This document shows positions 351 through 62,339 of a stretch of 64,000 nt of DNA, piece after piece. This DNA comes from Isoetes taiwanensis (Eukaryota > Streptophyta > Lycopodiopsida > Isoetales > Isoetaceae). The notes under the pieces were generated by a model. It saw nothing but the letters and a program-made list of their open reading frames with translations, was not told where the DNA came from and did no database searches. The stretch lies in contig JAJEKV010000046.1 of assembly GCA_021234155.1 (NCBI GenBank), forward strand, positions 6,763,012 through 6,827,011, in the 5' to 3' direction. Position 1 is the first letter of the stretch. Every line of letters starts with the position of its first letter. The position numbers were made by a program, and so were the translations under genes.

Positions 351-416
351 GATCACATGACGCGAAGCTTAGTGTCAACTATTTAAATGGAAGGCCTAAT
401 TTCGCGTCATATGATC
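351..416. repeat. Cassette hairpin 1
   Basis: Left arm GATCACATGACGCGAA (351-366) and right arm TTCGCGTCATATGATC (401-416) pair at 15 of 16 positions around a 34-base loop. This is the first member of the hairpin family that recurs between the cassette genes. Confidence 0.85.
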
Positions 417-634
417 TCCTTCTCTTTTTGTTTATTTTGTTACCTCTTCTTTACAAACATAATTTCTGTGCAGGTATATATTTATTAGATGTTGAGGATG
501 TTGTTCTGACTGAAAGCATTATTAATATCCTTGTCGTCTATCATATAGACATCGGGCTTGTCCTTTTCCAAGGTATGGATTCTGTCACCTTACAGGGTAT
601 GGGCATCTAGTTTTACAGCCATGATTACAACATA

Positions 635-1020
635 AAAATTAGGAAGCAAAGCTTGAGGCCGGTTGAATTGCCCTCCTTAAGCGAATTGCGTAAGCCACAA
701 ACTAATGACAACAGTATAATTACAATGAAGAAATGCCTGGCTGACGAGGTACAAGCAGTGAGAATGAGTTTTAAAATCTTCACACCATTTGAGGTATTTG
801 TTAACATATTCCAAATGGCGCAGAAAGTACGAAAAGCTAGAAAACAGATGTATGCTTTCTGCCCCCTGGTGAGTTTGTGGATGGCCTATTTTTGGGTCCT
901 TCATGGGATGTTCGATTCCACGAATCTTCTGGTCAACTAATATGCCGCATAGTTAAATTCCCTTTTAGGCCATTGTCAGAATTAAGAGTGCCAATGGAGA
1001 TGGAAGTTTGCGATCAACAA
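635..1020 (+). pseudogene. Unrecognised decayed coding remnant after hairpin 1
   Basis: I do not recognise this gene. An open frame from about 635 reads through ELPSLSELRKPQTNDNS and KMAQKVRKARK-like charged segments, and near 860 a second frame continues with LPPGEFVDGLFLGPSWDVRF. Together they give about 120 residues with one frameshift. The segment lies downstream of hairpin 1, the position that other hairpins hold relative to cassette genes, so it may be a further decayed member of the array. No homologue was found elsewhere in the window. It could equally be chance open frames. Confidence 0.25.
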
Positions 1021-1215
1021 AAAATTGTCTATTGGTTCTTTTATTTTTTTCATTTTTTGTGTGAAATTTCTTTGTGGCGTTTCGTACATTACATTTTTAA
1101 AAAGTTACCAATGTATTTACTTTGCATTTTTAAAAAGTTACCAATATATTTACTTTTAGCTTTAGTTTTTTATTATTTATCACTTGTCAGTTGTCCATTT
1201 CCAGAGTATTTGTAG

Positions 1216-1234
1216 TATAAAGCTCCTTCCGCTG
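1216..1234 (+). promoter_or_regulatory. TATA box and leader of the histone H3-like gene
   Basis: TATAAAG at 1216-1222 is followed at once by CTCCTTCCGC. The same GCTCCTTCCGC string follows the TATA region of gene C2 near 61579, which links the H3-like gene to the cassette genes. The lost start codon lies 20 bp further on, at 1242. Confidence 0.5.
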
Positions 1235-1241
1235 AGAAGCC

Positions 1242-2098
1242 ATAGCTCGAACTAAGCAAACCGCAAGGATTCATCCGGGCGGTGGTAGGCCAGGTGATTA
1301 CGTTATTCCTCCTCCTTTAAGTGAATCTGAAGTCTCTGATCGTGAATCGCCTCCTCCAACAATGTCTAACAAAAGGCCAGATAAAGAACTTCGCGTGACA
1401 GACGACATGGAAAGTACCTCTAGAGTAACTAGGGAGGTCAACTCTGGCTCGGAGACGGAAGATGGAAGGGTCACACATCGGCGAGAAAAATGATGCCGGA
1501 TTGATAGATGGGCAAGGGGCTCCTGCTGATCCACCTATGGGCACGCCATAGGCTTCTAATCAAAGGGGGCGAGGTCATCCAAGAAAGGAGAAGGCCATCG
1601 GAGAAGGCCACCTGATTGTCTAAAAATGTGAGGAGATGGTCAGAAGAGGCGGCCGAGCAGCAACCTCAAAATGAATGGCAGAATGACGTGATTGAGGGTA
1701 GTGGCTAAGTTGGAGCCGCAGAGTAGCAACAACCACAACAGCAACAGCCAGCAGAGCCAGTAAGAAGGAATCGAAGGACAAAGCTTAATGTCAAAGCATT
1801 TCACGAGATTAAGAAGTATCAAAAGAGCACGTGAGCTGGTCATTCCATGTCTCCTATTTGTGAAGCTTGTGAAAGAGATACTGCAAGAATGTGGCACTAT
1901 ATATAATTCTATGTATAGGATTCAAGCAACAGCTTTGAATGCTCTTCAAATGGCGGTGGAAGAGTTGGGGTCAGTTTGTTTGAGAACTTGCAGTTTGCAG
2001 CCATACATGCCAAGATGGTGATTGTCATGCCCAAGGACTCGTGCCTGGTCTTACGCATAAGGGATCTGGAGTACTATAGTCATAATTTTGAAACCTAA
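1242..2098 (+). pseudogene. Divergent histone H3-like gene, copy 1 (long N-terminal tail)
   Basis: This encodes a histone H3 relative, a nucleosome core protein. The frame at 1242 reads ATA then ARTKQTAR, identical to residues 1-8 of the H3 tail, so the ATG has become ATA. The reading continues 83 codons through a disordered acidic/proline stretch to TGA at 1491. Further frames hold an AT-hook-like GRGHPRKE and a glutamine-rich stretch. From 1781 KLNVKAFHEIKKYQKST matches the H3 alpha-N helix, followed by LVIPCLLFVKLVKEIL (alpha 1), ALNALQMAVEE (alpha 2) and FAAIHAKMVIVMPKD (alpha 3). Loop 1 is about four residues longer than in canonical H3. Frameshifts at 1832 and near 1970 break the fold. 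The tail of roughly 180 residues is far longer than canonical H3. A CENH3-like or viral H3 are alternatives. Confidence 0.8.
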
Positions 2099-2334
2099 TG
2101 CATCTTTACGACTAACTTAAAATGCTTTCGTGTTTTTTTTTTTTATATATATTTTATATATCCTCTGATGTTAGGGGCTTTCTTATGAATATAGTCTCTT
2201 TTTTCATAAAAAATAAAGTAATATCTGCTTGAAGATTAGTCCATTGCTTTCTCAAACAGCTAGATTCGAGTGGCGTGCCAATTTTTTTTTAAGTCTTTTT
2301 ATGGTGGGATCACATGACGCACAGCTAGCATTAT
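1555..2334. repeat. Tandem duplication, unit 1
   Basis: About 780 bp, beginning AATCAAAGGGGG, covering the histone-fold half of the H3-like gene and its 3' flank, repeats directly downstream. The second unit starts near 2335 with the same AATCAAAGGGGG and ends near 8512 after a retrotransposon insertion. Both units keep the same frameshifts. Confidence 0.8.
2308..2320. repeat. Half hairpin at the duplication junction
   Basis: GATCACATGACGC is a left arm only. Its right arm is missing because the duplication junction falls about 14 bp further on. The complete version is at 8486-8552. Confidence 0.65.
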
Positions 2335-2802
2335 AATCAAAGGGGGTTAGGTCATCTAAGAAAGCCACCAGAGAAGGCCACCTGATTGTCTAAAAATGTG
2401 GAGACGATCAGAAGAGGCGGCTGAGCAGCAACCTCAAAATGAATAGCAGAATGAGGTGATTGAGGGTAGTGGCTAAGGTGGAGCCGCAAAGTAGCAACAA
2501 CCACAATAGCAACAGCCAGCAGAGCCAGCAAGAAGGAAGCGGAGGACAAAGCCTGATGTCAAAGCATTTCACGAGATTAAGAAGTATCAGAAGAGCACGT
2601 GAGATGGTCATTCCATGTCTCCCATTTGTGAAGCTTGTGAAAGAGATACTGCAAGAATGTGGCACTATATATAATTCTATGTATAGGATTCAAGCAACAG
2701 CTTTGAATGCTCTTCAAATGGCGGCAGAAGAGTTGGGGTCAGTTTGTTTGAGAACTTGCAGTTTGCAGCCATACATGCCAAGAGGGTGATTGTCATGCCC
2801 AA
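2335..2802 (+). pseudogene. Histone H3-like gene, copy 2, upstream part
   Basis: This is the second tandem copy of the H3-like histone-fold region. It lacks the ARTKQTAR start because the duplication begins inside the tail. The frame carrying RRKRRTKPDVKAFHE and KKYQKST leads into the alpha-N helix. After the same one-base shift seen in copy 1, it continues as MVIPCLPFVKLVKEIL, ALNALQMAAEE and then FAAIHAKRVIVMPKD. The copia element interrupts the gene right after MPKD, and the last codons resume at 8176. Copy 2 keeps proline in LPFVKL and arginine in HAKRV where copy 1 has changes, so it is the better guide to the ancestral protein. Confidence 0.75.
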
Positions 2803-2807
2803 GGACT
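2803..2807. repeat. Target-site duplication GGACT, left
   Basis: GGACT precedes the left LTR and recurs at 8176-8180 right after the other LTR. A 5-bp duplication is usual for copia integrases. Confidence 0.9.
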
Positions 2808-3514
2808 TGAACGGATTTGACTAGGCAATACAGATTATTTGCACTAGCACAAGATCTAGCTGGAAACAAATTTAAACATTGACAATGCAATAGAGATGCT
2901 TTGTTTCCACTATTGCAACCATTAGAAATATAACAAACAATGTCAATGAAATTCAAAGGCTAAAGTACTGTAGCAATGAAATATCATTTTCAACTTCGAT
3001 AGCCCAAGCATCAGTATACATGCACCGGCTGCAACAATGCTTTTCCCTGCCGATCTGCTAATCAAATAACATACTACTTATTTTATTTGTTGATCCGGCC
3101 GATTAGCCGGACCGAGCTCACCTGCTGTAGCCGGAATGGAAACTTTGAAGGTCCTGTGTTTTTCATGCCACTAAGGCATTGGACCGAGAATAACAATACT
3201 AATTTTAACCTCATATAGATAAGACCTTCTTAAAAATAAAAGGCCCTTATCTAAGACCATTGCATGCCAACCATTCGGGTCATAACAATCACCCCTAATA
3301 ATATTTTTGCATCAACCTTTTTCGACCCTTTCAGATAGATATAGGTTCAACTTATAGCCCCTTCAGATAGTATGCTCATGATCACACAACCATGATTATG
3401 GTCATGTAAACTGCTCTGCAACTTTAATTTATAGCAATGTTACAGTTCTGAACTTCTATCTTCAAAATTGATGGCAGTAGTATAAACTGCTATGACAGGA
3501 CCATAAATTCTTCA
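2808..3514 (-). repeat. Copia LTR (3' LTR of the minus-strand element)
   Basis: 707 bp, starting TGAACGG and ending TTCTTCA (TG...CA borders). It contains 27 bases absent from the other LTR: 23 near 2830 and 4 near 3020. Confidence 0.95.
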
Positions 3515-5954: not shown

Positions 5955-5957
5955 ACC

Positions 5958-8175: not shown

Positions 8176-8512
8176 GGACTCGTGCCTAGTCTTACGCATA
8201 AGGGATCTGGAGTAATGTAATCATAATTTTGAAGCTGCATACAATAAGAGAAAAGAGTTGCTAGATCCTAATGCTCTTTACGACTAACTTAAAATGCTTT
8301 CATGTTCTTTTTTGATATATTTTATATATCCTCTGATGTTAGGGGCTTTCTTATAAATATAGTCCCCTTTTTTTCATAAAAAACAAAGTAATATCTGCTT
8401 GAAGATCAACATTTTAGCCCATTGGTTTCTCAAACAGCTAGATTCGAGTGACGTGACAATTTTTTTTTAAGTCTTTTTATGGTGGGATCACATGATGCGC
8501 AGCTAGCATTGT
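8176..8512 (+). pseudogene. Histone H3-like gene, copy 2, 3' remainder and flank
   Basis: After the right-hand GGACT the interrupted copy resumes with the codons SCLVLRIRDLE and meets a stop earlier than copy 1 does. The following 300 bp match 2050-2334, including the TTTTTTTTTAAGTCTTTTTATGG block, and run into hairpin 2. This fixes the retrotransposon as inserted after the tandem duplication. Confidence 0.75.
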
Positions 8513-8552
8513 GCTTTCTATTTTATATATGCTAGTCTCGCATTGTGTGATC
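8486..8552. repeat. Cassette hairpin 2 (upstream of E1)
   Basis: Left arm GATCACATGATGCG (8486-8499) and right arm TCGCATTGTGTGATC (8538-8552). The inner bases CAGCTAGCAT and ATGCTAGTCT extend the pairing. Confidence 0.85.
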
Positions 8553-8622
8553 CGATCCCTAACCCCTAAAGCATACAAACGAATCCCCACAATGGCTCTA
8601 TTGTATATCTTCTTAATGCACA

Positions 8623-9330
8623 ATGGCTACTTTCTGTTTTGCACTCAGAGCGTTTTGTAGCTCCTGCACATCTTTTTGCATCTTGCATCTGCATCTCCAT
8701 GGATTGTTATGCGAAGTTTTGGAATGGTATACATCTGCCCCACATGCAAATGAGGAAGTTGTGATGATTATTTATCCGTTCTATTGTAAGAATATCGACA
8801 TGGGAAATAGAGGCAAGCTCACATGCTATCACGATCTTGCTTTAGAGTTTACCCATGGTTCTTTTGCTCAGCGGATGTGCTTTGCTAGTGTTCATATCGT
8901 TTGGATTCCGAAACCAGCTTTAGAAGAAGTGACTTCCTGTTTGCAAGGGTTGAAGACATTCTTCAATAATGTGGCGCAACAAGCTTTGCCGGGTTGCGTG
9001 TTTGTAATTAAGAAGGTAACTTACATCTTCTTGCCATTTGCATTTGCTTCTTATTACATCTTGCTCGGCCAAAGCGAGGATACAATGGAAACAATGAAGT
9101 TATTAAGCCAAGGAGGATCGGTTATTTGTGATGATGATGACAATGAGATAGAAATGGAGATTGATCTACGAGAATATTTTGACAACCAAGCAGGTCTGCA
9201 TGCCAATACATGTTTAATTTCTTAGTTGCTGGCTTGAATCACCGAGCTAGGAAGCTAGGCTTGATAACATTGAAGCGATTCCTTTGCTAGATCAGTTCCA
9301 AAGGGGATTGAAAGAGTAGGAAACAAAAGA
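8623..9330 (+). pseudogene. Gene E, copy 1 (unknown family)
   Basis: I do not recognise the family. The open frame runs from ATG 8623 to the stop at 9225 (200 residues). The 3' part, MEIDLREYFDNQAGLHAN, matches YFDDQAGLMGEQYVKF of gene E2 (58398 on). Beyond the stop, DNA to 9330 still aligns with the E2 end (AGATCAGTTCC...GGGGATTGAAAGAG), so this copy is cut short by a stop. It follows hairpin 2 by 70 bp. A DDDDNEIE acidic patch precedes the conserved end. It is the first gene of cassette 1; the next cassette gene, A1, is displaced 11 kb by later insertions. Confidence 0.6.
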
Positions 9331-9495
9331 TGAGACATGAAATCTAGAAAAATTGCAACGTATATATTACGTAAGTTTGACGTTCTTGTGATACATGAAA
9401 TCTTCTTATAATATAAGGTTATACCATATTGGACGGATCAACCCTAATCTGAATGGCTAAGATCATCTGATTGAATTTGAAGACCGATATTTATT

Positions 9496-9526
9496 GCACG
9501 ACCTTCCATCACCGTGATTGGTCGTG
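9496..9526. repeat. Short inverted repeat beside the purine tract
   Basis: CACGACC and GGTCGTG form a 7-bp stem around a 16-base loop, just before the purine-rich stretch. Its role is unknown. Confidence 0.4.
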
Positions 9527-20285: not shown

Positions 20286-20459
20286 ACGAGGTAGGGCAAA
20301 TGGCAAAGGATATAGAAAATAGTGTCATGTGTAACAATGACGTACTTTTGGATTATTCTCTCATTGTTACAATGTATCATTTATAGTTTCTCAGCTTATG
20401 CCTAGCAACGTTGGGCAACGTTCCTAGTTTAAAATAAGAGATATTCTATTTATATTTGT

Positions 20460-20522
20460 TCACACCACATGAAATATAGCAGTTGGTGTTCTTGCCCAAC
20501 ATGACTATTCGCGTCATGTGAT
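20460..20522. repeat. Cassette hairpin 3 (5' of A1)
   Basis: Arms TCACACCACATGAAA (20460-20474) and ATTCGCGTCATGTGAT (20507-20522). It matches the position of 58672-58732 in cassette 2. Confidence 0.7.
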
Positions 20523-20580
20523 ATTTCTGTAAAAAAATAAATAAATATGCATATAAAATAATATTAAATTTCTTTATTCT

Positions 20581-20642
20581 TCACACGATGCAAAACACAA
20601 CGGTCCATTTACCTAACCAACGATATTTTTCGCATCATATGA
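20581..20642. repeat. Cassette hairpin 4 (promoter side of A1)
   Basis: Arms TCACACGATGCAAAA (20581-20595) and TTTCGCATCATATGA (20628-20642). TATAAATA follows at 20667, and CAAGCTACTA between the two is shared with A2b (59712). Confidence 0.8.
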
Positions 20643-20666
20643 CACAAGCTACTATGAAATCTCTTT

Positions 20667-21097: not shown

Positions 21098-21475
21098 ATG
21101 GCATGTCCATTTTCTTCAAACAAATGCCCACGCCAAGAAAGCCCTCCATCACGCTAAGAGCTGCCCGTGGACATCACCCTTGTTGTTGTGATGAAGTGGT
21201 TCAAAGAAATCCATGAGGAAAACAACCATCTAGTTATGGAGAAGATAGGTGCCTCCGACAGATTATTTTTTACTAGGGCGTTGCTGCATGAACGAGACAT
21301 CGAGCTCACATAAACGTTTGCCTTGTACTAGGAGACGAATCACAAGAGGACCGAGGCAATTAAAACTGCCCATAATATTTCTTTAGCCTCAGAAGAAATG
21401 GAGAAGAAGCTACGAGTTGTGGAGAATGAGAATGCAACTTTAAGGCTTCAGCTAGAGGATCATGAAGATCCCTAG
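21098..21475 (+). pseudogene. Gene A, copy 1 (coiled-coil protein)
   Basis: Unknown small protein, about 125 codons. The ATG at 21098 aligns with those of A2a and A2b. After a shift the body reads VDITLVVVMKWFKEIHEENN, then FTRALLHERDIELT, a TAA stop, and MEKKLRVVENENATLRLQLED. Spacing of Leu and charged residues suggests one long coiled coil. It ends DHEDP-stop like A2b. A stop within ELT and the frameshift near the start make this copy non-functional. Its TATA box is 430 bp upstream because of the LINE insertion. Confidence 0.65.
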
Positions 21476-21546: not shown

Positions 21547-21613
21547 GATCACACCACGCGAAATGCCATATGTGCAAATAAATTGCACATAGTGTATTTC
21601 ACATCGTGTGATC
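21547..21613. repeat. Cassette hairpin 5 (3' of A1)
   Basis: Arms GATCACACCACGCGAAAT (21547-21564) and ATTTCACATCGTGTGATC (21596-21613), 67 bp in all. The loop holds TGTGCAAATAAATTGCACA, itself an inverted repeat. Confidence 0.85.
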
Positions 21614-21725: not shown

Positions 21726-21794
21726 GATCATAGGATGCAAAATGTTGTGTGTGTGCAAAAAAAATGTGCATAGTGCAACTCGTGTCGGATGATC
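21726..21794. repeat. Cassette hairpin 6
   Basis: Decayed arms GATCATAGGATGCAAAAT (21726-21743) and AACTCGTGTCGGATGATC (21777-21794). Together with its flank it looks like a duplicate of hairpin 5. Confidence 0.65.
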
Positions 21795-22004
21795 TCCATT
21801 ATACGTATTTGATATAAATGATATCCACATGGCATTTTTAGACTTAATAATATGCCCTCCTCCAACAAACAAAATAGTTGTTGTAATTGGGTATAGACGG
21901 CGTGTCGCTTATTTGAGATGGCATGTCACAATGATGTCATACTTTGTACGGCTTGTCAAGTAATAAGATGGGTCTGAATATCGTACAGTCAGGGTCTGAC
22001 GGTT

Positions 22005-22065
22005 CCCATGATGCGAAACTAGAGTATTGTTTTCTACATGCATGCTATCATTTTGCTTCATAAGG
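22005..22065. repeat. Cassette hairpin 7 (5' of B1), degenerate
   Basis: CCCATGATGCGAAAC (22005-22019) pairs with TTTTGCTTCATAAGG at 11 of 15 positions. B2 has the same arrangement at 60588-60653. Confidence 0.55.
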
Positions 22066-22122
22066 TTTTATTACAACTTTATCGGTAATGGCAGCTGTAA
22101 AATTCAATGTATCTGTGGTCTC

Positions 22123-22239: not shown

Positions 22240-22756
22240 ATGGCCTCCAGCTCCATCCTTGCCGAGATTTTATTACAAGTTCTTGTAAAAGAAATGAAGA
22301 TCATTCGCGCACAAGAGGAAGAGCAAATCCGACTCCGAAAGAGAAGAATGATAAGACACCACAAAGTTGGTTGCGACGTAGGATAAGGCCACCTTCTATA
22401 GGAAGGTGATTGAAGTGTGGGACAATCAACGGGCTTGCACGCAACAAGGTCTAACCTCCAAGATAGGCTTAGAGCCTGTCTGCACCCAACTCGATGAGCG
22501 GGAGGATAAGGTTGCAGAGTACGAGAACGTGGTTGCCAGGAAGGCAGCATTGCTGGAGGAGCTGAACAAAACAACAAGAGAGCCATTCGTGTCATCCAGC
22601 AAGATATTGCCTACCAGCAAGAGCTCACCCGCACCTGCTCTCGCTTTTGCTCAACCCGTCAATCATGAGCATCCGGATCCTCCGCTCCCTGTAAAGGCGC
22701 CATTTTTTTCAATGCTTGTATGTATTTTAATTTCGCAATGGAAAAAAAAGTTTTAG
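22240..22756 (+). pseudogene. Gene B, copy 1 (coiled-coil protein)
   Basis: Starts MASSSILAEILLQVLVKEMK and continues IIRAQEEEQIRLRK; a frameshift near 22340 leads to a stop, and the other frame continues VIEVWDNQRAC and QLDEREDKVAEYENVVARKA. The last string matches B2 almost exactly. Overall about 140 residues rich in Glu, Arg and Leu with coiled-coil character. Past the shared region it reads on to 22756 into sequence that is non-coding in B2. The function is unknown; the N-terminal ILxQVLVKE helix is conserved between copies. Confidence 0.65.
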
Positions 22757-22819: not shown

Positions 22820-22884
22820 GATCACATGAATCGAAACTCGTCATTTGCTTTTAAAATGCGTGTGAAGTTTTCGCGTGAGTGATT
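22820..22884. repeat. Cassette hairpin 8 (between B1 and C1)
   Basis: Arms GATCACATGAATCGAAAC (22820-22837) and GTTTTCGCGTGAGTGATT (22867-22884). It corresponds to 61379-61443. Confidence 0.75.
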
Positions 22885-23191: not shown

Positions 23192-23643
23192 ATGGCCTCC
23201 TCATCCTCCACTACTGAGAAACAGAAATGCTCGACTCTAGAACTTCATTGTGATATAGATTTGGGTGTTCTAATGAAGAGGTCGAAGGAACAATATGAGA
23301 TTATTAAGGGGAATGATGCTGCCATTCAACAGAAAGAAAAAGAAAATAAATTCAAGCTTCTCATGCTTCATAGTCAAGAGAAGCAGATCAGATGGTTAAA
23401 TAGAAGGCTTGACAAGAGAGGAACAAGATGTTCCAACAACTACAATGAGATTGTTTTGACTACAAGGAGGCTGCTCATTCAAGCGGAAGAGAATGTTGTG
23501 ACAATGGGACAGAAGCGGGACATATAAAGAAATGGTAGACAGATTGGAAGAAAGCTTAGATAGGGTACTTGCGCGCCTAAGGAAAGGAGACGAAGATGAT
23601 GATCAAGAAAAAGAGTTGGCATTGGAGCAACACTTACTTGTTC
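23192..23643 (+). pseudogene. Gene C, copy 1 (coiled-coil protein with acidic tail)
   Basis: ATG 23192 gives MASSSSTTEKQKC, then DLGVLMKRSKEQYEIIKG, IQQKEKENKFKLLMLHS, IRWLNRRLDKRGTRC and TTRRLLIQAEENVVTMG. The frame ends after QKRDI at 23527; a one-base shift continues as YKEMVDRLEESLDRVLARLR and an acidic GDEDDDQEKE tail. About 150 residues, largely coiled coil and charged, of unknown function. C2 keeps the shift region in frame, so the break here is a private mutation. The 3' hairpin starts 65 bp beyond the end. Confidence 0.7.
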
Positions 23644-23708: not shown

Positions 23709-23726
23709 GATCACACTACGCGAAAT
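23709..23726. repeat. Cassette hairpin 9, left arm, split by a LINE
   Basis: GATCACACTACGCGAAAT is an intact left arm. Its partner, GCACCGTATGATC, lies at 25201-25213 on the other side of the LINE. In cassette 2 the corresponding hairpin is at 62201-62264. Confidence 0.7.
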
Positions 23727-23744
23727 CACATAAATCCAAAAAAG

Positions 23745-25198
23745 AAGGAAGGAAAAAAGTATATTTTAACGTCCACGGAGGCCAACTGGCCTATGAGACG
23801 GTTATAGACATACAATATATTGGAAAGTATCCAAACATAAAAGAAAACCACAGAAACCCTGTACAATGTGTCTCTACCACTGGGGCGAAAAAACCCCCCG
23901 TGTGGGAGGAAAAACCCTTGTAGTAGGCGTTCAGAGTCCCTATCTGGGCGCTCAAATTCCCTGTGCTATGAGGGACTCTCTGACGGCGGAGACTTGCAGA
24001 ATGTAGGACACGAGATGTGCAACCATTGGCGAAGCCCGCAGTTGATGAACTGCTATCTCAGAGCATCTGAGATCGGCATGAGCTGCTCGGATGTGTGCAT
24101 ATGCCGGACACTCCTGTAGAGCATGGTGTTCATCTTCTACTATCTGCATGTGACAGCACTGGCATAATCTCTCGTGCCGGGGGATTCCCTGCCCACCATC
24201 CGTACCCCAGCGGCCTGTCTCAATTCTGAGATGGTGGGACCCTGTCCTTATTGCAGCTATAGCTCTCCGTTTCTTGGTAGAGATGTGTGCCCTCAAATAC
24301 TGGTGGGGGCCATGTTCAAGCGACGGATTAACCTGCGTGTGGTAGTGCTCTGTTTTGGGCTTTGCAAGAGTGGGCACATCCCACAGAGAGGTAGCAAAGC
24401 GCTCATTCAAATGCAGCTCCTGTTCCGCAATATCCGACATATCCATAATCTGTTGATAGTCTATGGACCATCTTGCGAACCATCCCCTACAATGCTCCTG
24501 CCACACTCTCTTGTGCATAACGTCTTCCTCCCCGGGCTCTGTTAGAGCAATTGTTTTACTGTATATGCCTCTGGCAACTGCGGGCCACCACCTCCATGTT
24601 CTTGCATCCAGGTCTCCAACTTGTCAATATAGAGTAAAAAAAAACGTTGGAGATAACGAACATCCCTGTTTAACACCTATGATATTGTTCACCCGGTGAT
24701 CTGACGCAGGCAAAGTGGCATATCATCATAGAGCCGGTAGATGGCATTCTGCAAATCCTGTGGGACATGTAGCTCCTGCAAGCGTTGCCACAACAGGTCC
24801 TGAGGGACCGTATCATATGTCGTCTTAAAATCCACGAAACAGCAATACAAGTCACGTCGTGCATTGCGGCTAGCTTCCATAAGAATTCTGAGAGTAAAAA
24901 TATGATCACTCGTGGAGTGGGCAGGGCGAAAACCTGCCTGGCCAATGTTCTGCATGTACTCCAGCTTCCTCAACCCATTGCGTTAACTTCTTCTCCAGCA
25001 CACCTACTAGAAGTTTTGCGAGTAACGGGCTCACCATGATCATACGGTAGTTGGTGGAGTCATCCCTACTTCCCATCTTATGAATAGAGGTGACCTTGCT
25101 AACCATCCATTCCTGTGGGAGGCTCTCTCTGATGGCCTGATTGATTATCCCTATCAAAGGCTCGAGCACTGGCCCACCCCAAGAGCAAAGATGATATT
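23745..25198 (-). mobile_element. LINE (non-LTR retrotransposon), 5'-truncated
   Basis: The minus strand encodes a non-LTR reverse transcriptase: MIMVSPLLAKLLVGVLEKKL (25030), IGQAGFRPAHSTSDHIFTLR (24915), YCCFVDFKTTYDTVPQDLL (24820) and, after a shift, GVKQGCSLSPTFF. The next part should contain the YADD catalytic box, but PEAYTVKQLL (about 24560) jumps directly to EPGEEDVMHKRVWQEHC, so it is deleted. The C-terminus has a cysteine-histidine motif CQCCHMQIVEDEHHALQEC (24110). No endonuclease is present. It inserted in the loop of hairpin 9. Confidence 0.9.
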
Positions 25199-25220
25199 CC
25201 GCACCGTATGATCCAAAGAA

Positions 25221-25287
25221 AATCATACGATGCAAAAGCCCACTTGTAAAAAAGGGGACGGAGACAAGTACTCCACCTCGTGTGAGC
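25221..25287. repeat. Cassette hairpin 10 (3' of D1)
   Basis: AATCATACGATGCAAAAG (25221-25238) and ACCTCGTGTGAGC (25275-25287). After it, the TACAAGTAGGCTTTACCGAT string is shared with 62352 on. Confidence 0.65.
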
Positions 25288-25309
25288 ATATATGCATTAC
25301 AAGTAGGCT

Positions 25310-27857
25310 TTACCGATTCTTTGTCTCTTCAATTTCTACTATTGCAATGATTGTGGAGTCTTGGAACGCTGCCATGCGAGCTTCTGCTTCTGCGTCCTCT
25401 TCCTCTTCCTCTTCAATGTTATGCTAATGATGTTTACCAATTCTGGGTTACTTCTTAAAGTGACCTTCTTGTCGTTTATAGCTATCGCCCTTCTATAGAA
25501 CCATTCTGTCATCTGTCTCAGAGGGTTGGTTCCTACTTTTCCATCCCATCTTTGAGTGTTTTTATGAAAGGCTACTTTAGCTTGTTTATGCGACTTTTTC
25601 ATGCCTTGTGCACTCCAGATTGCTAAGCTGCATACTTTCTAAAAAACCAAGATGTATGAGCCCAAAAGATGTGTAAAGAGTGCTTGGCTTCACTTTCACC
25701 CTATGCATCTATGTAAGCCTTGATAAATTTGTTATTCGCTTGCACGAACATTTCTGCATCTTTTTTGGTGAGATCTTCGCTGAATGTGCAGGAACAGTTC
25801 AGATAACGCATTCCATGCTTTTTTTTCCCTCAATGCCGAACACGCTCCATCTGTGCAGTCTTTTTCTTCATTAACCAGCAATTTTCCATATTCATATATC
25901 TTTTCATTGATATTGTTTTGGTTAGAAGCCTCTTTATGATTCTTGATAAAGCGTCGACACTTTATGAGACATATTTGTTGTTCCTGCCTTTTTTTCATGA
26001 AGCTCTAATTTCATATTGCCACCATAAAAACCTGCTTCTGATAGAACATGTTTAACTTTGCAAATTTCTTTCTCTCTTCTTTTTTTGTCTTCAATGTTCC
26101 ACTTGAATCTGCAGCTCAAGAATATCGTCTTATCGATGATTCCAACAAAATCGTGCAAAGTGCAGATATGAACTCTAATAGAATGGAAAAAATACCGTGT
26201 AACTTAGGACCTTTTCCTTCCTTATTAGGAGGATTTGCTTGGTTGAGGCACAAGGTCAAAACCATCCTCCCAGTACTTGACTTTCTTGCCAAGTGAAAAA
26301 TGACTTTGTAAGATCCATATTGATCTACTTGCAGTTCTTCCCCTCCCTCAAATCTAGATGTTATGCTCGGGATGCCAGTTTGATTGAACGCCCATTTCAG
26401 TACCTCATGGGTCTCTTTCTGAGCTTTAAAGAGACCTAACCACCAGGTGTCATCTTCAGATTGACATGGGAACCATTTCTTGGCAGCCGCCTTCTTCGCG
26501 TTTGTCTCCTCTGCATATTTCTTCTTACTCTTCAGCCTTCTTCTTCGCGTTTGTCTCCTCTGCATATTTCTTCTTACTTGTATTGCTCTTTGATTTAGCA
26601 TGTGCAATTGCATCTTCAATTGCTCTATTCATGGTGACAATGGATACCCTCTCATATTTTTCAACCTTTGTAAGTTTTATTTCATCCAGTTTTATGCAAA
26701 TTTCAAGCTCGCCATTAATTTCTTCAATTGTTAAGTCATAATATTTGACAAGGAATTGTAACAGACTAACAAGGGCAGTAATCCTTGTATTCTCAACAAT
26801 TTGAGGGCGTGGAGCAAACACTTTTCTTGTGCCCATTCTTTTTAACGTTTCGTGAAATGGCTTGAATAGAGAACGGTAACCAACCTAATGCCTACATCAT
26901 CACAAACTGTCTAGACATCTGCCGCTTCAAGCTTCTTGTATATCTCTCCTAGTACCATTTCTAATACCTTTTTCTTGAAAGAAGAGTTGTAAGATATGTC
27001 TATTATTTCTTGTTTTTCGATAGGTTCCTCATTACGTAACCAAGATTGCTTCTGGTTTTGCCACATCTTGATTGGCCTTTACTAGTATTATAAACACACC
27101 TTGTGGTCGTGACCTTGGGTCTAAATGCACCTGATCTAAATTTCAATTCCTCTATCGGTCGAAAGTTTTTCTTCCTCTCTCCTAAGCCAAGGTGTTCTTT
27201 TCAAACTCTTTAATCTAGAATGAAATCCAACATTTGCCCTTTCAAGCTCTTGAACCTTCTCTTGCAGTTGCTTTGTTACCGATTTGGACTTGTCCACTTC
27301 GTATCTCAAAAAGCTTTCTCTGTCGAAGCCATCATTGATTTCCATCATTATAGTACAGTAATGAAGCGAGAGAAAAAAGAGTTGCTGGTTTGAGTTATAA
27401 CTCTCTTGTGACATTTGAAAGTAGCTCCTCTCAAGAAAGTGTATTCGATTCCTAATGTCTTCATCGTCTCTTAATCTCTCGCAATAACCAAAGGAGCCAA
27501 AGTTACTATCACCGCAAAATCTAACTAAGCTTGACACATCCTGAAATGATAGTTTCTTGCCGTTCAATGGATCCATAGATATAAACTGCCATCCACCCAA
27601 ATGTCGACACTTTTAATCTACAAGACGCAACATATGAGGTCTAAGTTCTTATTTTTTAGGTCTTCCTTTTTGCGATTGAAGAGTGAAGCATATTCATGAG
27701 TCAGTTGAATTCTTATCCACACATCATTTGGAGCTTCCAGACTGCATGGATCACATGGCCCTAGCCAAATTCGCTTCGTGTGGGCCGACTGTCCATTCAA
27801 GCATAGTTCTTGAAATTTTCGACGTGCGTACAAAAATCGAAAAGTCAATTCTCCCAC
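25310..27857 (-). pseudogene. Gene D, copy 1 (large unknown protein)
   Basis: Not recognised. On the minus strand, segments in order: FLYARRKFQELCLNG (27830), LSFQDVSSLVRFCGDSNFG with coiled coil VTKQLQEKVQELERAN (27240-27560), MGTRKVFAPRPQIVEN (26836), LQFLVKYYDLTIEEING, WFPCQSEDDTWWLGLFKAQK and ISTRFEGGE-like text (26300-26470), then KKYEYGKLLVN and a Lys-rich C-terminus (25339-25602). D2 matches over the central 330 residues. This copy lacks 29 codons present in D2 (63351-63437), including a Cys-pair, and has several frame breaks plus a duplicated CTTCTTCGCGTTTGTCTCCT stretch (26490, 26541). It converges with C1, as D2 does with C2. Confidence 0.6.
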
Positions 27858-29339: not shown

Positions 29340-30540
29340 AATCTCATAAAAAATTTCAGCTGGTTGATATCTCTTAGATCAAAACTAAAAAAAAACAGGT
29401 GCTAGCTTTAGAGGATGAAAGGCTAGGACAACAGTTATGGGACACCTTTTTCTCTCGGTTGTGAAGAAGTAAAATTGTTTATTTGGTTACCTATGTGGTT
29501 ACCCCTACATATTCAGAACTGTTGTGTGGGTATAGTGATATCACATAACATCTACATATATTAGTATTTTTGAAGTTTAATAAATATATCTTTCAACAAA
29601 AAAAAAAGTGTCACTTATGTATCCCCCTATTGTTCATCTCTGGAACTAGTTTTCCATATGTTAATTCTATTAACACAAACAACATCATCTATTTGTTTTA
29701 GATGCCATGACTTATTCCCACTAACGACAACGACAATATTCATTTAAAATAAAAGCCAATAGGAGATACGCACGTCATATTTTGTCGTTCATCCCTCTTT
29801 CCATTGGGTGTGGTAGGTGTATAGCTGGCATTATTTCGTTGTTGCCGTTAAATTTTTATTCTATCGGGCAGCATCAATATTTCAATGGCAATAGGAAGAA
29901 AAACACCTAAAATTAGCTAAAAATCAATGATTATTGTTTTTGCATTGCCATTAATGGAAGGCTTTGGAGTAGAAAATGCCGGCAATTCTAAATTTTTTCA
30001 CGTTATCGCCTGGAAACTACGAGGCCACGTCATTTTCAAACCTCACGTTAGTGAAAGTCCGGTGGGCTTCCACATAGATTTCTCCTTTTACCTTTGAGCA
30101 TGGATATATTAGAAAATGCTAAGGATGTAGATGTGCACGAGGGATATTCCAAACACCCTCTTGCAGCACTAATAATTGAGAAGACTTATACTTTACAAGC
30201 GAGCGTTTTATTTAACAACCATGGTCATGTTTGAACCAGCATGAAATGAAAAAAACTTCGTGTAGTTTTTCCCTCAATGTGGCTTTAACATGACACTCAG
30301 CAAAAAAATTTGTTAAGTCCACAAAAACCCCATGTTTTTTTTTGGGTTGCCCCTAGGGGGCAAACCCTTGTTTATGTGGGGTTTTGGCATATCCTAGGTA
30401 TATGCTAGAATATCCTAGGTATATGCTGGTGACTGCTCCAAACTTCCTATTTCCTGTAAACTCTCGGTCAGATGTAAAGAACTCCACGACTCCTTGTAAC
30501 CGGGTAACTGGCAAGGCAGGGATCGGCCATCAGAGATCGA
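29340..30540. other. Gene-free stretch with a short palindrome
   Basis: No supported coding region or element. GGGTTGCCCCTAGGGGGCAA (about 30344-30369 with its flank) is a near-perfect palindrome, and ATATCCTAGGTATATGCT repeats twice at 30389-30427. Confidence 0.5.
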
Positions 30541-53449: not shown

Positions 53450-53764
53450 CAGCGATTAATTGCTTTGAAATGATTAGTTTATTGCTTTGATGTTATTGTC
53501 TAGCATGTTTAAATGTTATTGACAACAAAATCTTAATGGCTAAGATTTTTGTTATTTGATCCAGCTCCTTCAAGCATTGTAAATGTTGAGTCACAAGCTA
53601 GTTCTTCAAGTAAGTTTTTCGCACCTCTTCAATATCTCTTTTATCCATAAATGCTGGAGGTATGATGCTTTTCTTCCTATTTGTTTCATTTTTGTCAATA
53701 AAAAAAACAGGAAGTGAGTATTTGGCTTCCCTTTGTTGGGGTTTTTGGCAATTAGAGTATAGGT

Positions 53765-57618: not shown

Positions 57619-58550
57619 ATGGAGATAGATCTACAAGAAGAAGAGCAAGAATGTAGGAGTTTTAGCTTCGACGCACTGGCCTTGGGTGAACCAGAGGAGG
57701 GAGATGATTCTGAAGGTGATGAGGATGGGGATGAGGATGAAAAGAAGTTGTCTGACATAACGCCAATTTTAGTGGAAGGCAAAGAATACCTATTGCTAAG
57801 TGATATACTGAGGAACCCGTCTTTGTTACGAATGTGTGCTAGGGAAGACGAGCTTATCAGTACCTTGGCCGAATGGGTAAACTTAGGCCTAGATTTTGAA
57901 GAGGATTTGGACAAAGAGATGTTTGAAGTGTCTAATTATACCGGCAATGCTATAAAGCTTAAAGAAGCCTATGAGAGGCTGGAGTCTCGATTTGCTCAAG
58001 ATGAGGCTAATCTACCAACGGGAAGAAGAATTCCGGCGTCTCCGCAAAAAGCCAACCGGGATCTCTGTGTTTGGCAGGCCCTTCATCAACCATGGCAAAG
58101 ATAAGCCCGGTAGATGAGGATAAATGTGAAGAAGATAAGCTTGAGGGTTCTTATTTGTGGGAAGTAGATGATTTTTCTTGCCGACATGCGGGGGGACAGG
58201 AAAGATTGAAGGACTCTACATTGTTACGATATATCTCAAGATTCGTTAATGGGGAGATAATCGTCAAAGAGAATTTTCAGTCCAAAAGGTGCGAGAGTTT
58301 GTCTATTACATCCGTGCATTATGCATGTTAGGGAACCATTCCCAATTGGCATCAAACACCGAAAAGGGTGATAGCAATTCGTAAGGATGTTGTGCTACAA
58401 TATTTTGACGACCAAGCCGGTCTCATGGGCGAGCAATATGTTAAATTTTTAGGCTGGCGGCTTGACTCACCCAAGGTTGGAAGTGGGGTCGATAACATGG
58501 AAGTCATTGCCTTGTTGGATCAAGTCGCGGTGGGGATTGAAAGAGCATGA
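57619..58550 (+). pseudogene. Gene E, copy 2 (unknown family)
   Basis: Opens at ATG 57619: MEIDLQEEEQECRSFSFDAL, a Glu/Asp-rich segment (EEGDDSEGDEDGDEDEKK), ILVEGKEYLLLSDILRNPSL, LAEWVNLGLDFEEDLDKEMF; this frame runs to 58104. Another continues EEDKLEGSYLWEVDDFSCRH and STLLRYISRFVNGEIIVKEN to 58331, and a third RKDVVLQYFDDQAGLMGEQY to IALLDQVAVGIERA at 58550. So about 300 residues over two frame breaks. The last 60 residues match E1 (9165-9330). MEIDL also occurs in E1. Function unknown. It is the first gene of cassette 2. Confidence 0.65.
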
Positions 58551-58671
58551 AATTGACGATTTAAGCTTGAGAAATTGGAAGTTATATGTTTTCCAACTTG
58601 TATCGGTAAAATTATTTATGTCTGATTGTCCTTCCGAAATTCCTAATAAAAATTATTTTATTTGTATTTAT

Positions 58672-58732
58672 TCACATCACGCCGAAATACATCGGTCGAT
58701 TTTCCGTCATATCTAGGTTTTCGCCGTGTGAT
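58672..58732. repeat. Cassette hairpin 11 (between E2 and A2a)
   Basis: Arms TCACATCACGCCGAAAT (58672-58688) and GTTTTCGCCGTGTGAT (58717-58732). It corresponds to hairpin 3. Confidence 0.8.
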
Positions 58733-58787
58733 ATCTATCTTGAAGAAATGAAATATTATTGGAAAAAACAATTAATTTATTTATTCC

Positions 58788-58816
58788 TCACACGACGCGA
58801 GAAGCAACTCGTGTGA
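58788..58816. repeat. Cassette hairpin 12 (promoter side of A2a), shortened
   Basis: TCACACGACGCGA (58788-58800) and AACTCGTGTGA (58806-58816) with only 5 bases between, so most of the usual loop is deleted. Confidence 0.65.
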
Positions 58817-58921: not shown

Positions 58922-59301
58922 ATGGCATCATCATCTTCCCTAGCAAGCGACCACGCCAAGATAGCACTCCCGGCCCGTAGCTGCCTCGCGTGGACATCAC
59001 CCTTGCAAAGTGGTGATGAAGAGATTCAAGGAGATCCATGATGAAAACAACCGCCTCGGCCGCCGAGAACAATGAGGCGGTCGACAGATTAGCCTTCACG
59101 AGGGAGCTGCTGCACGAGCGAGACGTTGAGCTCGTGGAAACATTCGCCATGTACCAAGAGGCGACGAGCCGCAGGGCCGAGGCAGTTGAAACTGCTCACA
59201 TGATTTTGCAGGCCTTAGAAGATATGGAGAAGAAGCTCCGAGCTGCGGAGGATGAGAACGCAGCCTTACGGCTTCAGCTGCAGGACATGAAAATCAGCTA
59301 G
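58922..59301 (+). pseudogene. Gene A, copy 2a (coiled-coil protein)
   Basis: Starts MASSSSLASDHAKIALPARS and runs out of frame near 58990; one-base changes around CTTGCAAAGTGGTGATG separate it from the main frame, which reads ENNEAVDRLAFTRELLHERD, VETFAMYQEATSRRAEAVET and ALEDMEKKLRAAEDENAALR to a stop at 59301. About 127 residues in the restored order, a near-continuous coiled coil. The 3' two-thirds is intact (87 codons from 59038), so a shorter protein from the internal ATG is possible. Unknown function. Confidence 0.7.
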
Positions 59302-59420
59302 AGGATCATGAAGATCCCTAGCCGTTGTATCTATCTATTTTTTGCTTCAAAGAAAAGGTTTCTCTATTTTTTGCTTCTATCTATCCTCTTGTTCCAATGT
59401 ATGTTCTGTTTTATTAAAAT

Positions 59421-59485
59421 ATCACACGACGCGAAATGCCTTGCTTGCAATTAGGTAGCAATCAATGGATTTCGCGTCGTGTGAT
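59421..59485. repeat. Cassette hairpin 13 (3' of A2a), perfect arms
   Basis: ATCACACGACGCGAAAT (59421-59437) and ATTTCGCGTCGTGTGAT (59469-59485) are exact complements over 17 bp with a 31-base loop. It is the best copy in the window and defines the consensus. Confidence 0.95.
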
Positions 59486-59647
59486 CTCCATGCCGTTCTA
59501 TTTTGCTTCAATGAGAAGTTCTATCTTTAGTTATGTATCAATAAAATTACTTATGTATAGATTGTATCACCGAAATTATCAATAAAAATTATCACACGAG
59601 CTTTCTCTGGAAGAAAAGACGTTAGAAGAAGTAACGGTCCCTTTTCC

Positions 59648-59709
59648 TCACACGACGCGAGAAGTAATAGTCCATTTTCCTGACCCACGGCATCCTTCGC
59701 GTCGTGTGA
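59648..59709. repeat. Cassette hairpin 14 (promoter side of A2b)
   Basis: TCACACGACGCGA (59648-59660) and TCGCGTCGTGTGA (59697-59709) pair perfectly over 13 bp. CATAAATA follows at 59734. Confidence 0.9.
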
Positions 59710-59828
59710 CTCAAGCTACTACGAAATCCCTGTCATAAATAGAAGACCTTCTATCTTGCCTTCGACCTCCGATCCTCTTCCGCCTTCCGCCTTCTGCTCA
59801 TCTTCTCCGCCTTCCGCCTTCTCCTCCG

Positions 59829-60185
59829 ATGGCATCTTCATCCTCCTCCAGCTAGCGACCGCGCCCAGAGTTGCCCGCGGACATCACCCTTGCTGTGGTG
59901 ATGAAGAGATTCAAGGAGGTTCACGATTTAAAAGCCAACAGCCGTCGCCGCAGAAGATGGAGGCGGTGGACAGTTAGAATTCACGAGGGGCTGCTGCATG
60001 AGCGAGACCTTGAGCAGCGGCAACATTAACCAGTAAAGAGAGGCCAATAGTCAGAGTAGGGTCGAGGGCTTTTAAGCGCACACAATATTTCGCAGGCGCT
60101 AGAAGATATGGAGAAGAAGCTTCGAGCTGCGGAGGATGAGAACGCAGCTTTACGGCTTCAGCTACAGGATCATGAAGATCCGTAG
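59829..60185 (+). pseudogene. Gene A, copy 2b (coiled-coil protein)
   Basis: ATG 59829 gives MASSSSSS then a TAG. Further on the usual frame reads DITLAVVMKRFKEVHDLKAN, is lost, and returns as ALEDMEKKLRAAEDENAALR and LQDHEDP-stop at 60185. The middle (60000-60090) has diverged or been rearranged: HERDLEQ is followed by sequence unlike A2a. It is a clear pseudogene, arisen by tandem duplication of A within cassette 2. Confidence 0.7.
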
Positions 60186-60269
60186 CCATTGAATATATAT
60201 TTTTTGTTTCAAAGAAAAATTTGCTCTGTTTCTTGCTTCTATCTGTTCTCTTGTTTTGTTTTATTAAAA

Positions 60270-60336
60270 GATCACGACGCGAAATGCCATTCTTGCAATT
60301 AGGTAGCAATCAATGGATTTACGGCGTCAGATGATC
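60270..60336. repeat. Cassette hairpin 15 (3' of A2b)
   Basis: GATCACGACGCGAAAT (60270-60285) and ATTTACGGCGTCAGATGATC (60317-60336). Its loop is nearly identical to that of hairpin 13 (CTTGCAATTAGGTAGCAATC), so the two are duplicates. Confidence 0.85.
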
Positions 60337-60587: not shown

Positions 60588-60653
60588 GATCCCATGATGC
60601 GAACATAGGCTACCGTTGCCTAATTGCATGCTATAATTTCGCCTAGTAGGATT
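60588..60653. repeat. Cassette hairpin 16 (5' of B2), degenerate
   Basis: GATCCCATGATGCGAAC (60588-60604) and ATTTCGCCTAGTAGGATT (60636-60653). The arms match only in their outer and inner parts. Confidence 0.6.
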
Positions 60654-60806: not shown

Positions 60807-61225
60807 ATGGCCTCCAGCTCCAGTTCCATCCCTGCCGAGATCTTGTCTCAAGTTTTGGTCAAGGAAATTCAGAACATTCGTGCTGAAGTGGAGGAACGGA
60901 TCCGCCTTCTAAAAGAAAAGAATGATGAAGACGTCGCCAAGCTGGTTCTTGGCAGAGGAAAAGGCCGCCTTCTTCTGGGGAAGTGATTTTAGTGCGCGAC
61001 AATCAGCGGGCTGCCTTAGACCGCGAATTGCGCGCCACGAGATATAACCTCCAAGAGAGGCTTAGGGCCGCAATCGAAGCGGGAGAGGCTGCCCGAGCTC
61101 AACTCGATGAGCGGGAAGATAAGGTTGCGGAATATGAGAACGTGGTTGCGGGGCAGGCAATCATGTTGGAGGAGCAGAAAAAAATTATCACTGCCCTCCA
61201 GGAAGAGCTTGCCCGGCGATCATAG
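60807..61225 (+). pseudogene. Gene B, copy 2 (coiled-coil protein), one frameshift
   Basis: ATG 60807 gives MASSSSSIPAEILSQVLVKE, IQNIRAEVEERIRLLKEKND and ends at a TGA near 60985. One base lost near 60978 moves the rest to another frame: VRDNQRAALDRELRATRYNL, RLRAAIEAGEAARAQLDERE and EEQKKIITALQEELARRS-stop at 61225. About 139 residues in total. Heptad-like Leu/Ala spacing suggests a coiled coil over the last 80. With its single lesion it is one of the best-kept cassette genes. Confidence 0.75.
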
Positions 61226-61378
61226 GCATCGGGCTCCTCCTAGAGGGGCCCGTTTTTTTTTTTTTTAATGTTTGTAATGGTTTTATTTCTCAATGGGAAA
61301 AGTTTTTGACAAATGTGCCGAATATTATGTTTCCTATTTTTAATTTTCAATATCCGTGGTAGAGAGAATGACAAGACA

Positions 61379-61443
61379 GATCACACGAAGCGAAACCCTT
61401 CATAGGGTTTTAAAGCTCGTGTGCAGATTTCGCGTGGTGTGAT
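61379..61443. repeat. Cassette hairpin 17 (between B2 and C2)
   Basis: GATCACACGAAGCGAAAC (61379-61396) and GATTTCGCGTGGTGTGAT (61426-61443). The loop CCTTCATAGGGTTTTAAAGC contains a small stem of its own. Confidence 0.85.
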
Positions 61444-61554
61444 ACAGTGTAGTTAGAATAGTTATTAATGTGTTCCAGCGGACAGTACCATTAATGTGTT
61501 CTAGCGGACAACCGACAGAATCCGCTCGACACGTGCGACAGCAGCCGAGTGTTG

Positions 61555-61562
61555 TATAAATT
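61555..61562 (+). promoter_or_regulatory. TATA box of C2
   Basis: TATAAATT, then GTGCTCCTTCCGCCGG at 61577, the leader string shared with the H3-like gene. Confidence 0.6.
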
Positions 61563-61647
61563 GAGGTCCTTGTATTGTGCTCCTTCCGCCGGTTAGAGTC
61601 TTTGCTCCTCACTTCTATAATCTTAACGTCCCTCCCATTTGTCATCT

Positions 61648-62118
61648 ATGGCCTCCACATCCTCAACCGCTGATAAGGGAAAACATAAGAGGATAGAACT
61701 CCCTTCCCGACATAGTGTTGGGTGTTCTAATGAAGAGGTTGAAGGAGCAAGATGATCTTCTAAAAGGAAAACGCCGTTACAATTCAGCAGAAAGAAGAAG
61801 AGAATGAATTCAACCTTCTCATGCTTCGTAGCGTGAGAGGCAAATCAGCGGTTGAATAGAAGGTTGGACAGGATGACATGCCCCAACAAGCTGACCGAGG
61901 TGGTTATGATGGCAACGAGGATGCTAATTCAGGCGTAAGAACACGTTGTGCTATTGGGGACAGGAGCGGGACATGTACAAAGAGATGGTGGATGATTGGA
62001 GGAACGTTTGGATAGGGTGATTGCTCGCTTGAGGGGAAGAGATGAAGACGAAGACGAGGGCCGAGCTGATGATGATGATGAAGATAATGAAGAAGAGCTC
62101 GCGACCGAGCAACAATGA
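61648..62118 (+). pseudogene. Gene C, copy 2 (coiled-coil protein with acidic tail)
   Basis: ATG 61648 gives MASTSSTADKGKHKRIELPS, then shifts of frame near 61715, 61790 and 61845; the middle matches C1 (LMLRS for LMLHS, LNRRLDR). From about 61950 it reads QERDMYKEMVDD and, after one lost base, LEERLDRVIARLRGRDEDED and ends EELATEQQ-stop at 62118. It has more lesions than C1 but keeps the frame at the point where C1 is broken, so both together show an ancestral protein of about 155 residues. Confidence 0.7.
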
Positions 62119-62200
62119 GTCGTTGTATTTTGTTTTTCAATGTAATATCTTTCACAACTTTAATCAAAAGTAACCCTTTTTATTATTATCTTGTAAAGCT

Positions 62201-62264
62201 TCACACGACGAAGCCACATAAATGCAAGCAATAGCGAACTCCTTTGTCGCGCCTTGCTATGATA
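62201..62264. repeat. Cassette hairpin 18 (3' of C2)
   Basis: TCACACGACGAAG (62201-62213) and TCGCGCCTTGCTATGAT (62246-62262). It corresponds to the LINE-split hairpin 9 of cassette 1. Confidence 0.65.
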
Positions 62265-62271
62265 CAAATAA

Positions 62272-62339
62272 GATCACACGACACGAAGCTACAGTTAATG
62301 CAAACAAGGTTGGAGGCAAGTACTTGGCGTCGTGTGAAC
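62272..62339. repeat. Cassette hairpin 19 (3' of D2)
   Basis: GATCACACGACACGAAG (62272-62288) and TTGGCGTCGTGTGAAC (62324-62339). It is the counterpart of 25221-25287. Confidence 0.8.

Follow-up and report, generated by a model that had tools for sequence, protein, structure and literature searches.

Hairpins as fixed internal elements of a dispersed multigene DNA transposon in the lycophyte Isoetes taiwanensis

A family of hairpins recurs in a 64,000-nucleotide stretch of the Isoetes taiwanensis genome (contig JAJEKV010000046.1, positions 6,763,012 to 6,827,011; hereafter, the window). We are highly confident that these hairpins are cis-elements at fixed places inside a dispersed DNA transposon, which measures about 13.5 kb and carries terminal inverted repeats of 32 bp. 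The genes of this element are arranged in the order H3-like, E, two consecutive genes for the coiled-coil protein A, B and C, followed by D on the minus strand.

Ends, copies and gene content of the transposon

The 1,658,258,908-bp assembly (1,110 contigs) was searched with the hairpin arm and with the terminal repeat. The terminal repeats start with CATTAGGG (in a longer form, CATTAGGGCGGATTTGGGG), are inverted over 32 bp and mark sharp copy boundaries; a 22-mer of the repeat, with up to 3 mismatches, has 940 matches on one strand and 947 on the other, whereas the control has 0 and 2. In the first 100 matches listed, at least five inverted end pairs lie 13.4-13.8 kb apart (two on C35 and one each on C133, C270 and C307), at least nine lie 3.9-4.6 kb apart, and a few pairs show other spacings, from 0.1 to 15.5 kb. 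One copy, C568, is 11.65 kb long and another, C35a, contains an internal duplication near its right end, and the size of about 13.5 kb is therefore approximate. The pairs spaced by 3.9-4.6 kb perhaps represent a non-autonomous form of the same transposon; among the first 100 arm places listed, no exact arm falls inside these nine pairs.

The 18-nucleotide arm, GATCACACGACGCGAAAT, with up to 2 mismatches, is found at 2,916 places genome-wide (1455 + 1461), compared to 14 (6 + 8) for the reversed control. The main sample consisted of twenty 10-kb loci fetched at exact arm matches, a choice that favours intact arms. Of these 20 loci, 18 contain two or more of the genes E, A, B, C and D, arranged as in the window; from the mean of 5.3 arms (at most 2 mismatches) per 10 kb in these 18 loci and the genome-wide arm count, we extrapolate, from this biased sample, to some hundreds of hairpin-bearing copies. 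In locus L032, only D fragments were found beside the hairpin, and L023 contains a hairpin without recognisable element genes. Thus, the link between the hairpins and these genes, which the original prediction drew from the letters of the window alone, holds genome-wide; it arises because both lie inside one dispersed transposon.

When left ends were chosen independently of the arms, at least 8 of the 15 that lie on contigs represented in the arm list were followed, within 13 kb towards the interior, by an exact arm, and among 40 left ends, at least 12 had an H3-like match within 3.5 kb and at least 9 had a D match within 14 kb. In C17, a subterminal hairpin lies about 690 bp from the left repeat, and in C568, one lies at about this distance from the right repeat; the terminal repeat and the hairpin arms are unrelated by eye. 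The H3-like gene exists in many copies (at least 213 matches from 150 scored of 7,943 candidates) and occupies the same position of the element in L040, L035, L037 and other loci. Among the titles and opening lines of abstracts, mostly of papers outside subscription, on transposon-encoded H3 and on RAG1-like or Transib elements in plants or lycophytes, no such element was found.

Transposase, insertion and relation to known elements

An intact relative of D, L069, folds like the RAG1/Transib transposases, with an RNase H-like DDE core of that type. The motifs of L069 come in the expected order, with C561/C564 (C(2)C) and H775/H780 (H(4)H) between D540 and the last E800; presumably, D540 and E800 are catalytic, as judged from the roles of the RAG1 residues. 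In phmmer, the alignment with RAG1 includes the H motif and the last Glu (E 0.07), and gene D of the window retains CxYC and a matching D. Pfam transposase models matched neither the D pieces nor L069, an absence that carries little weight, and the RAG1 match was lost in a PDB profile search with alignment A3, perhaps through misaligned rows. No match above curated cut-offs was obtained with Pfam for the D, E, A and C pieces and L069 or with NCBIfam for E, A, C and L069 (B was outside these scans). Relatives of D with open frames of 877-931 amino acids (aa), no stops and 55-56% identity are found at L069 (C931:986600-990900), C1045:8777182 and C1036:1036731; they may stem from a domesticated RAG1-like gene or belong to a transposon line of their own. 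A weak match to the D lineage was detected in the fern Adiantum nelumboides.

The element seems to insert without target duplication. In none of 12 end pairs (ten compared by script, C35a and C568 by eye) are the ends flanked by a target-site duplication of at least 3 bp; ten of the pairs were selected for an exact 22-mer, and C568 carries a variant. In the C79 pair, 2 bp are common to both flanks by eye, about the chance level, and a 5-mer match in the C54 pair that lies one base off the ends was taken as chance. The C35a copy sits within another H3-like gene, and its raw flanks, when joined, read in frame as ...LALARRIRG..., like histone H3. The joined flanks of C568 make an open frame, ...VIVLDGWDEQIADEYN..., that resembles phosphoglycerate mutase, a label derived from a weak PDB match (E 0.84) with none in Pfam; the zero duplication at C568 is read from the letters themselves and from the frame that stays open across the joined flanks, and not from this label.

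The target of C35a (L042:8105-9418, L043:3017-3715) is a 438-residue open stretch in which a histone H3 domain (Pfam 1.1e-40) is preceded by a long unrelated N-terminal extension; it may be a host gene or part of a further element that carries H3. Two frames beside this target (L043:3143-3715 and 3948-4631) have no Pfam match, and remains of a hAT-type transposase (DUF659, hAT dimerisation domain) are located near C35a at L045:3895-6208.

CACTA/EnSpm transposons are common in plants, and RAG1 itself descends from a transposase of the clade that unites CACTA/EnSpm, Mirage, Chapaev and Transib (CMCT) with RAG1, Plavaka, ESTA and Lanisha. This clade is characterized by 2-5 bp duplications, mostly CA..TG termini, a C(2)C motif and an H(3-4)H motif, the two motifs being placed after the second D and before the last E (PMC12730594). 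The element described here shares with the clade the RAG1/Transib fold of the D relative, C(2)C followed by H(4)H before the last Glu, and 5'-CA...TG-3' termini (CATTAGGG...CCCTAATG at both ends of the 12 pairs) but differs in that no 2-5 bp target-site duplication was found and in its multigene load, which includes the H3-like gene. A RAG1-type fold alone is not new to plants because the clade includes CACTA/EnSpm. Given that the fold, motifs and termini fit but the duplication does not, we place the transposase with CMCT without filing the element as Transib, EnSpm or a described lineage. We take the terminus CATTAGGG to be neither that of CACTA nor the heptamer of recombination signal sequences (RSS) and Transib; in contrast to EnSpm/CACTA, with CAC..GTG termini and a 3-bp duplication, the termini here are CATTA..TAATG, with no 3-bp duplication in the 12 pairs. 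A lycophyte lineage apparently lacking the duplication would break the rule stated for the CMCT clade. DNA transposons without target-site duplication are also represented by the Spy group of the PHIS superfamily. The Spy group has PIF/Harbinger-like transposases (PMC4482050), unlike the RAG1-fold transposase of this element.

Hairpin architecture and candidate roles

The original prediction listed 19 hairpins of 60-70 bp in the window. All 19 positions could be read out, and the family is real, but its length is nearly fixed, given that 99 of 118 hairpins scoring at least 24 in the window and 25 fetched loci span 66-67 bp. A scan with a two-arm motif, at a total score of at least 21, yielded 17 places in the window, namely, 15 of the 19 listed ones together with 25172 and 27749, against a mean of 0.7 and a maximum of 2 in 10 triplet-block shuffles and 0 in the reversed window; at 23 or above, the counts were 13 and 0. 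The listed copies below the threshold are readable by eye: 22820 and 62201 are decayed, 58788 is cut to 29 bp, and 23709 is split. As predicted, no hairpin at or above the threshold was found between 27,785 and 58,670. A viral origin of the hairpins was considered and rejected: the exact 15-mer of the arm has 13 single matches in 2.9 million viral contigs.

The hairpins form about ten positional classes with common arms and class-specific loops, and most copies read have their hairpins at the same positions; ten hairpins remained single at the clustering threshold, including six from the older copy in the window. Among ten representatives, one per class, pairwise identity is 72% in the arm core and 28% in the loop. 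The thousands of arms in the genome and the lone hairpin of L023 would suit an ordinary miniature inverted-repeat transposable element inserted many times beside these genes. The positional classes common to the copies, their unrelated loops and the gene content of the 18 loci make such an origin extremely improbable.

Each hairpin comprises two inverted copies of the half-site TCACACGACGCGAAA, the starts of which are 48-49 bp apart. The majority sequences of the ten classes depart from the arm consensus 17 times, with 14 one-sided and 3 two-sided departures and a single true compensation (14 of 145 hairpins that fit no class were excluded from this test). The folding of the inner loops of the ten representatives, compared with shuffles, shows z values of -2.2 to +1.2 and no common trend. 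Because departures are rarely compensated, a dyad site is favoured over RNA structure; the conserved object would be the half-site inverted at a set distance and not the stem, which points to a dyad protein-binding site. Among the roles originally suggested, protein binding fits best. Transcribed palindromes acting as 3' ends, terminators or small-RNA precursors could be accommodated by the stable folds of the ten representatives (-17 to -39 kcal/mol) and by the location, judged by eye, of several hairpins soon after stop codons and near poly-A-like strings. Apart from the excess of one-sided departures, however, the loops differ between classes, about half of the positions are 5' of genes, and the window contains no Rfam match at the gathering threshold, so that we regard a role in RNA as very unlikely. 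No tRNA was found in the window.

To compare CpG decay between parts of the element, CpG columns were tallied over 18 copies (17 loci and the younger copy of the window), with L035 serving as the coordinate frame only. Decay to TG/CA amounts to 10% in arms outside class A3p (3' of A) and 6% in A3p arms; it reaches 42% in loops (from just 17 columns), 20% in flanks of 40 bp and 26% over the remainder of the element. With the three arm contexts matched, decay is 9.5% in arms against 18% in the rest, and 17 of the 18 copies show less decay in the arms outside A3p than in the context-matched rest. The observed value for arms was reached by 0 of 2000 random column sets, and the effect survives the removal of A3p, the class mostly hit by the exact arm. 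We read this pattern as a hint that the arms are covered by protein or carry little methylation.

Taken as a whole, the findings are explained best, and in our judgment fairly probably, by transposon-internal dyads that are bound by a factor with an anti-silencing or gene-border role. A more specific version of this scheme, modelled on the VANC proteins, is plausible but tentative: the dyad of half-sites would be recognised by a putative DNA-binding factor, most likely a product of the element; when bound to hairpins both 5' and 3' of the genes, this factor would keep the closely packed genes separately expressed and could let them escape host silencing, as a VANC protein does on the VANDAL motif. 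VANC21 binds a short repeated motif of a VANDAL element, which then loses methylation (PMC5735166), and VANDALs are Mutator-type (MuDR) transposons (PMC12730594). The element analysed here resembles VANDALs as a multigene plant DNA transposon with a short motif repeated in non-coding parts, namely, the hairpins between the gene matches; it differs in having a D protein with the RAG1 fold, a spaced dyad at gene borders in place of tandem repeats, and a putative binder where that of VANDALs is known. The En/Spm protein TnpA is likewise an element-encoded protein with many short, partly inverted sites, which are clustered near the ends of the element. Unlike those sites, the hairpins mark gene borders over the length of the element. 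An extended version, in which the element carries its own chromatin kit, with an altered-tail H3-like protein and coiled-coil partners docked at the border palindromes and packaging silencing-resistant chromatin, appears doubtful. The combination of an H3-like gene with a near-fixed dyad showing less CpG decay gives a testable model of transposon-encoded escape from silencing in a seedless plant.

The lower CpG decay and the flanking of genes by hairpins are also consistent with sites of a host factor or insulators, where a plant protein would recognise the arms and the hairpins would serve as borders or S-phase switches between the packed genes. The original prediction placed most hairpins either 3' of one gene or 25-110 bp before the TATA box of the next; in L035, TATA-like strings lie 23, 58 and 128 bp downstream of the hairpin for A2, B and C, which is roughly as predicted for three of five genes, but TATA[AT]A is absent from the 220 bp before the ATG of E and A1. 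By eye, AATAAA or ATTAAA precedes the 3' hairpins of E and A by a few to about 20 bp, and the inner arm, TTTCGCG, resembles an E2F site. Nevertheless, the conserved half-site is longer than sites of plant factors usually are, and just one of the 20 arm loci (L023) is free of recognisable element genes and one (L032) has D fragments only. We therefore consider host-factor borders unlikely, ranking them first among the rivals, followed by RNA hairpins and then recombination sites.

In the last of these rivals, D would bind the hairpins inside the element, or excision would take place at them, and single genes would be lost or moved like cassettes. Locus L038 lacks B and C, with the junction (5530-5560) in hairpin B5p and at the tip of CD1, of 24 mapped breakpoints, 14 fall no more than 20 bp from a hairpin (expectation, 14.5%), and the subterminal hairpins of C17 and C568 lie at about 690 bp from a terminal repeat. 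However, most of the breakpoints near hairpins belong to the A1/A2 duplication, where mapping is ambiguous, and the count drops to 4 of 12 in the six deletions judged clean, so that enrichment at hairpins is not clear; the L038 deletion is one suggestive case of integron-like cassette loss. Given also that the arms do not resemble the terminal repeat and that hairpin positions recur in most copies, the excision and recombination sites envisaged in the original prediction find no clear support here, and we view them as very unlikely.

Several observations weigh against dyads with a bound anti-silencing factor. Non-CpG divergence is 4.1% in arms, 4.0% in genes, 4.0% in other intergenic parts and 3.6% in loops, with no sign of recent constraint on the arms; because these values are about equal, the low CpG decay is not a matter of general constraint. 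The CpG effect itself is weaker in context-matched resampling (22 of 2000 resamples reach the observed value), is absent in the GCGA context (12% in arms, 9% in the rest) and runs in the opposite direction in L034, and the choice of loci by exact arm matches biases the sample to intact arms. Apart from the lone hairpin of L023, no such hairpin is present in the 4.3 kb fetched at L069, the D relative with 56% identity over 311 aa, and the hairpin sites therefore do not simply follow D. As for the candidate binder, A, C and E matched no curated DNA-binding family (B was outside the scan), a homologue search for E found none, and the AlphaFold model of E was poor (mean pLDDT, the predicted local distance difference test score, 37) and was not used.

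Layout of the two copies in the window

An older, interrupted copy of the element occupies 1-2.8, 8.4-9.4, 20.4-28.0 and 30.3-30.5 kb of the window, its pieces separated by a copia element and by other inserts. A younger copy, with its left part missing, extends from 57.6 kb on (Table 1). The leftmost hairpin corresponds to the hairpin of L022 that is placed some 690 bp away from the C17 left terminal repeat. In the split CD1 hairpin, the left arm is at 23709, and the right arm lies at about 25205 and ends at 25213. L032 has a full hairpin in place of the shortened one at D5p.

Table 1. Element features of the older copy (first row to position 30470) and of the younger copy (from position 57619) in the window; class names denote hairpin positions relative to the genes; ORF, open reading frame
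Feature	Coordinates	Strand	Basis
Left part of old copy, decayed H3-like region	1..2809	+	BLAST to copies L022-L041; interrupted after ~2.8 kb
Left subterminal hairpin	351..416	.	score 28.2; cf. L022 9791-9857, C17:213522-213543
E gene, 5' part and 3' end fused by internal deletion	8414..9368	+	element-copy matches
Hairpin 5' of E, class FE by position	8486..8552	.	scan
Hairpin, EA1 position (3' of E elsewhere)	20458..20523	.	scan
Hairpin, A5p position, 5' of A	20579..20644	.	scan
A gene, small coiled-coil protein, decayed	21098..21475	+	tblastn with A of L038, 65% over 113 aa
Hairpin 3' of A	21547..21613	.	score 29.4
Second hairpin 3' of A	21726..21794	.	scan
Hairpin, B5p position, 5' of B	22002..22067	.	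score 21.9
B gene, decayed, ends approximate	22240..22640	+	element-copy coverage; ends by eye
Hairpin, BC position, right arm decayed	22820..22884	.	below scan threshold, read out
C gene, 111-aa open frame	23192..23527	+	ORF; tblastn with C of L035, 64%
Hairpin, CD1 position, split by ~1.5-kb insert	23709..25213	.	by eye against class CD1
Hairpin, CD2 position, 3' end of D	25221..25287	.	scan
D gene (RAG1-fold transposase), decayed, ends approximate	25300..27576	-	BLAST; tblastn P0003/P0011; ORF 27136-27576
Shortened 37-bp hairpin, D5p position	27749..27785	.	score 23.0; absent from the original prediction
Displaced piece from near right end of old copy	30338..30470	.	matches L032:5154-5287, just past D5p hairpin
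E gene minus first ~154 residues; start of younger copy	57619..58560	+	element-gene matches
Hairpin, EA1 position, 3' of E	58670..58733	.	score 22.2
Shortened hairpin, A5p position, 5' of A1	58788..58816	.	sequence, 29 bp
A1 gene	58922..59303	+	element-gene matches; ends by eye
Hairpin class A3p, 3' of A1	59420..59486	.	score 31.9
Hairpin class A5p, 5' of A2	59646..59711	.	score 27.7
A2 gene	59831..60185	+	element-gene matches; ends by eye
Hairpin, A3p position, 3' of A2	60268..60336	.	scan
Hairpin, B5p position, 5' of B	60588..60653	.	scan
B gene, frame broken in window	60808..61225	+	element-gene matches
Hairpin class BC, between B and C	61379..61444	.	score 29.4
C gene	61649..62117	+	element-gene matches
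Hairpin, CD1 position, 3' of C, decayed	62201..62265	.	sequence
Hairpin class CD2, 3' end of D	62272..62339	.	score 28.0
D gene, C-terminal part, continuing beyond window	62350..64000	-	ORF 63012-63983; homologues; fold of relative; low end inferred from L038

Between the two copies, the region 52316-55480 contains open frames of 377 and 571 aa, which are matched by none of the 20 element loci and have no Pfam match above the cut-off. The stretches 9463-10511 and 19664-20380 show purine/pyrimidine skew and have long open frames that are probably spurious, and parts of the stretches resemble stretches of L047. The insert at 23734-25205, of about 1.5 kb, resembles a long interspersed nuclear element by eye, and its 188-aa frame has no Pfam match; it shares similar letters, again by eye, with the insert at 20700-20900. 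Inside the older copy, positions 4824-7471 contain a copia-type retrotransposon, identified by Pfam integrase and gag matches.

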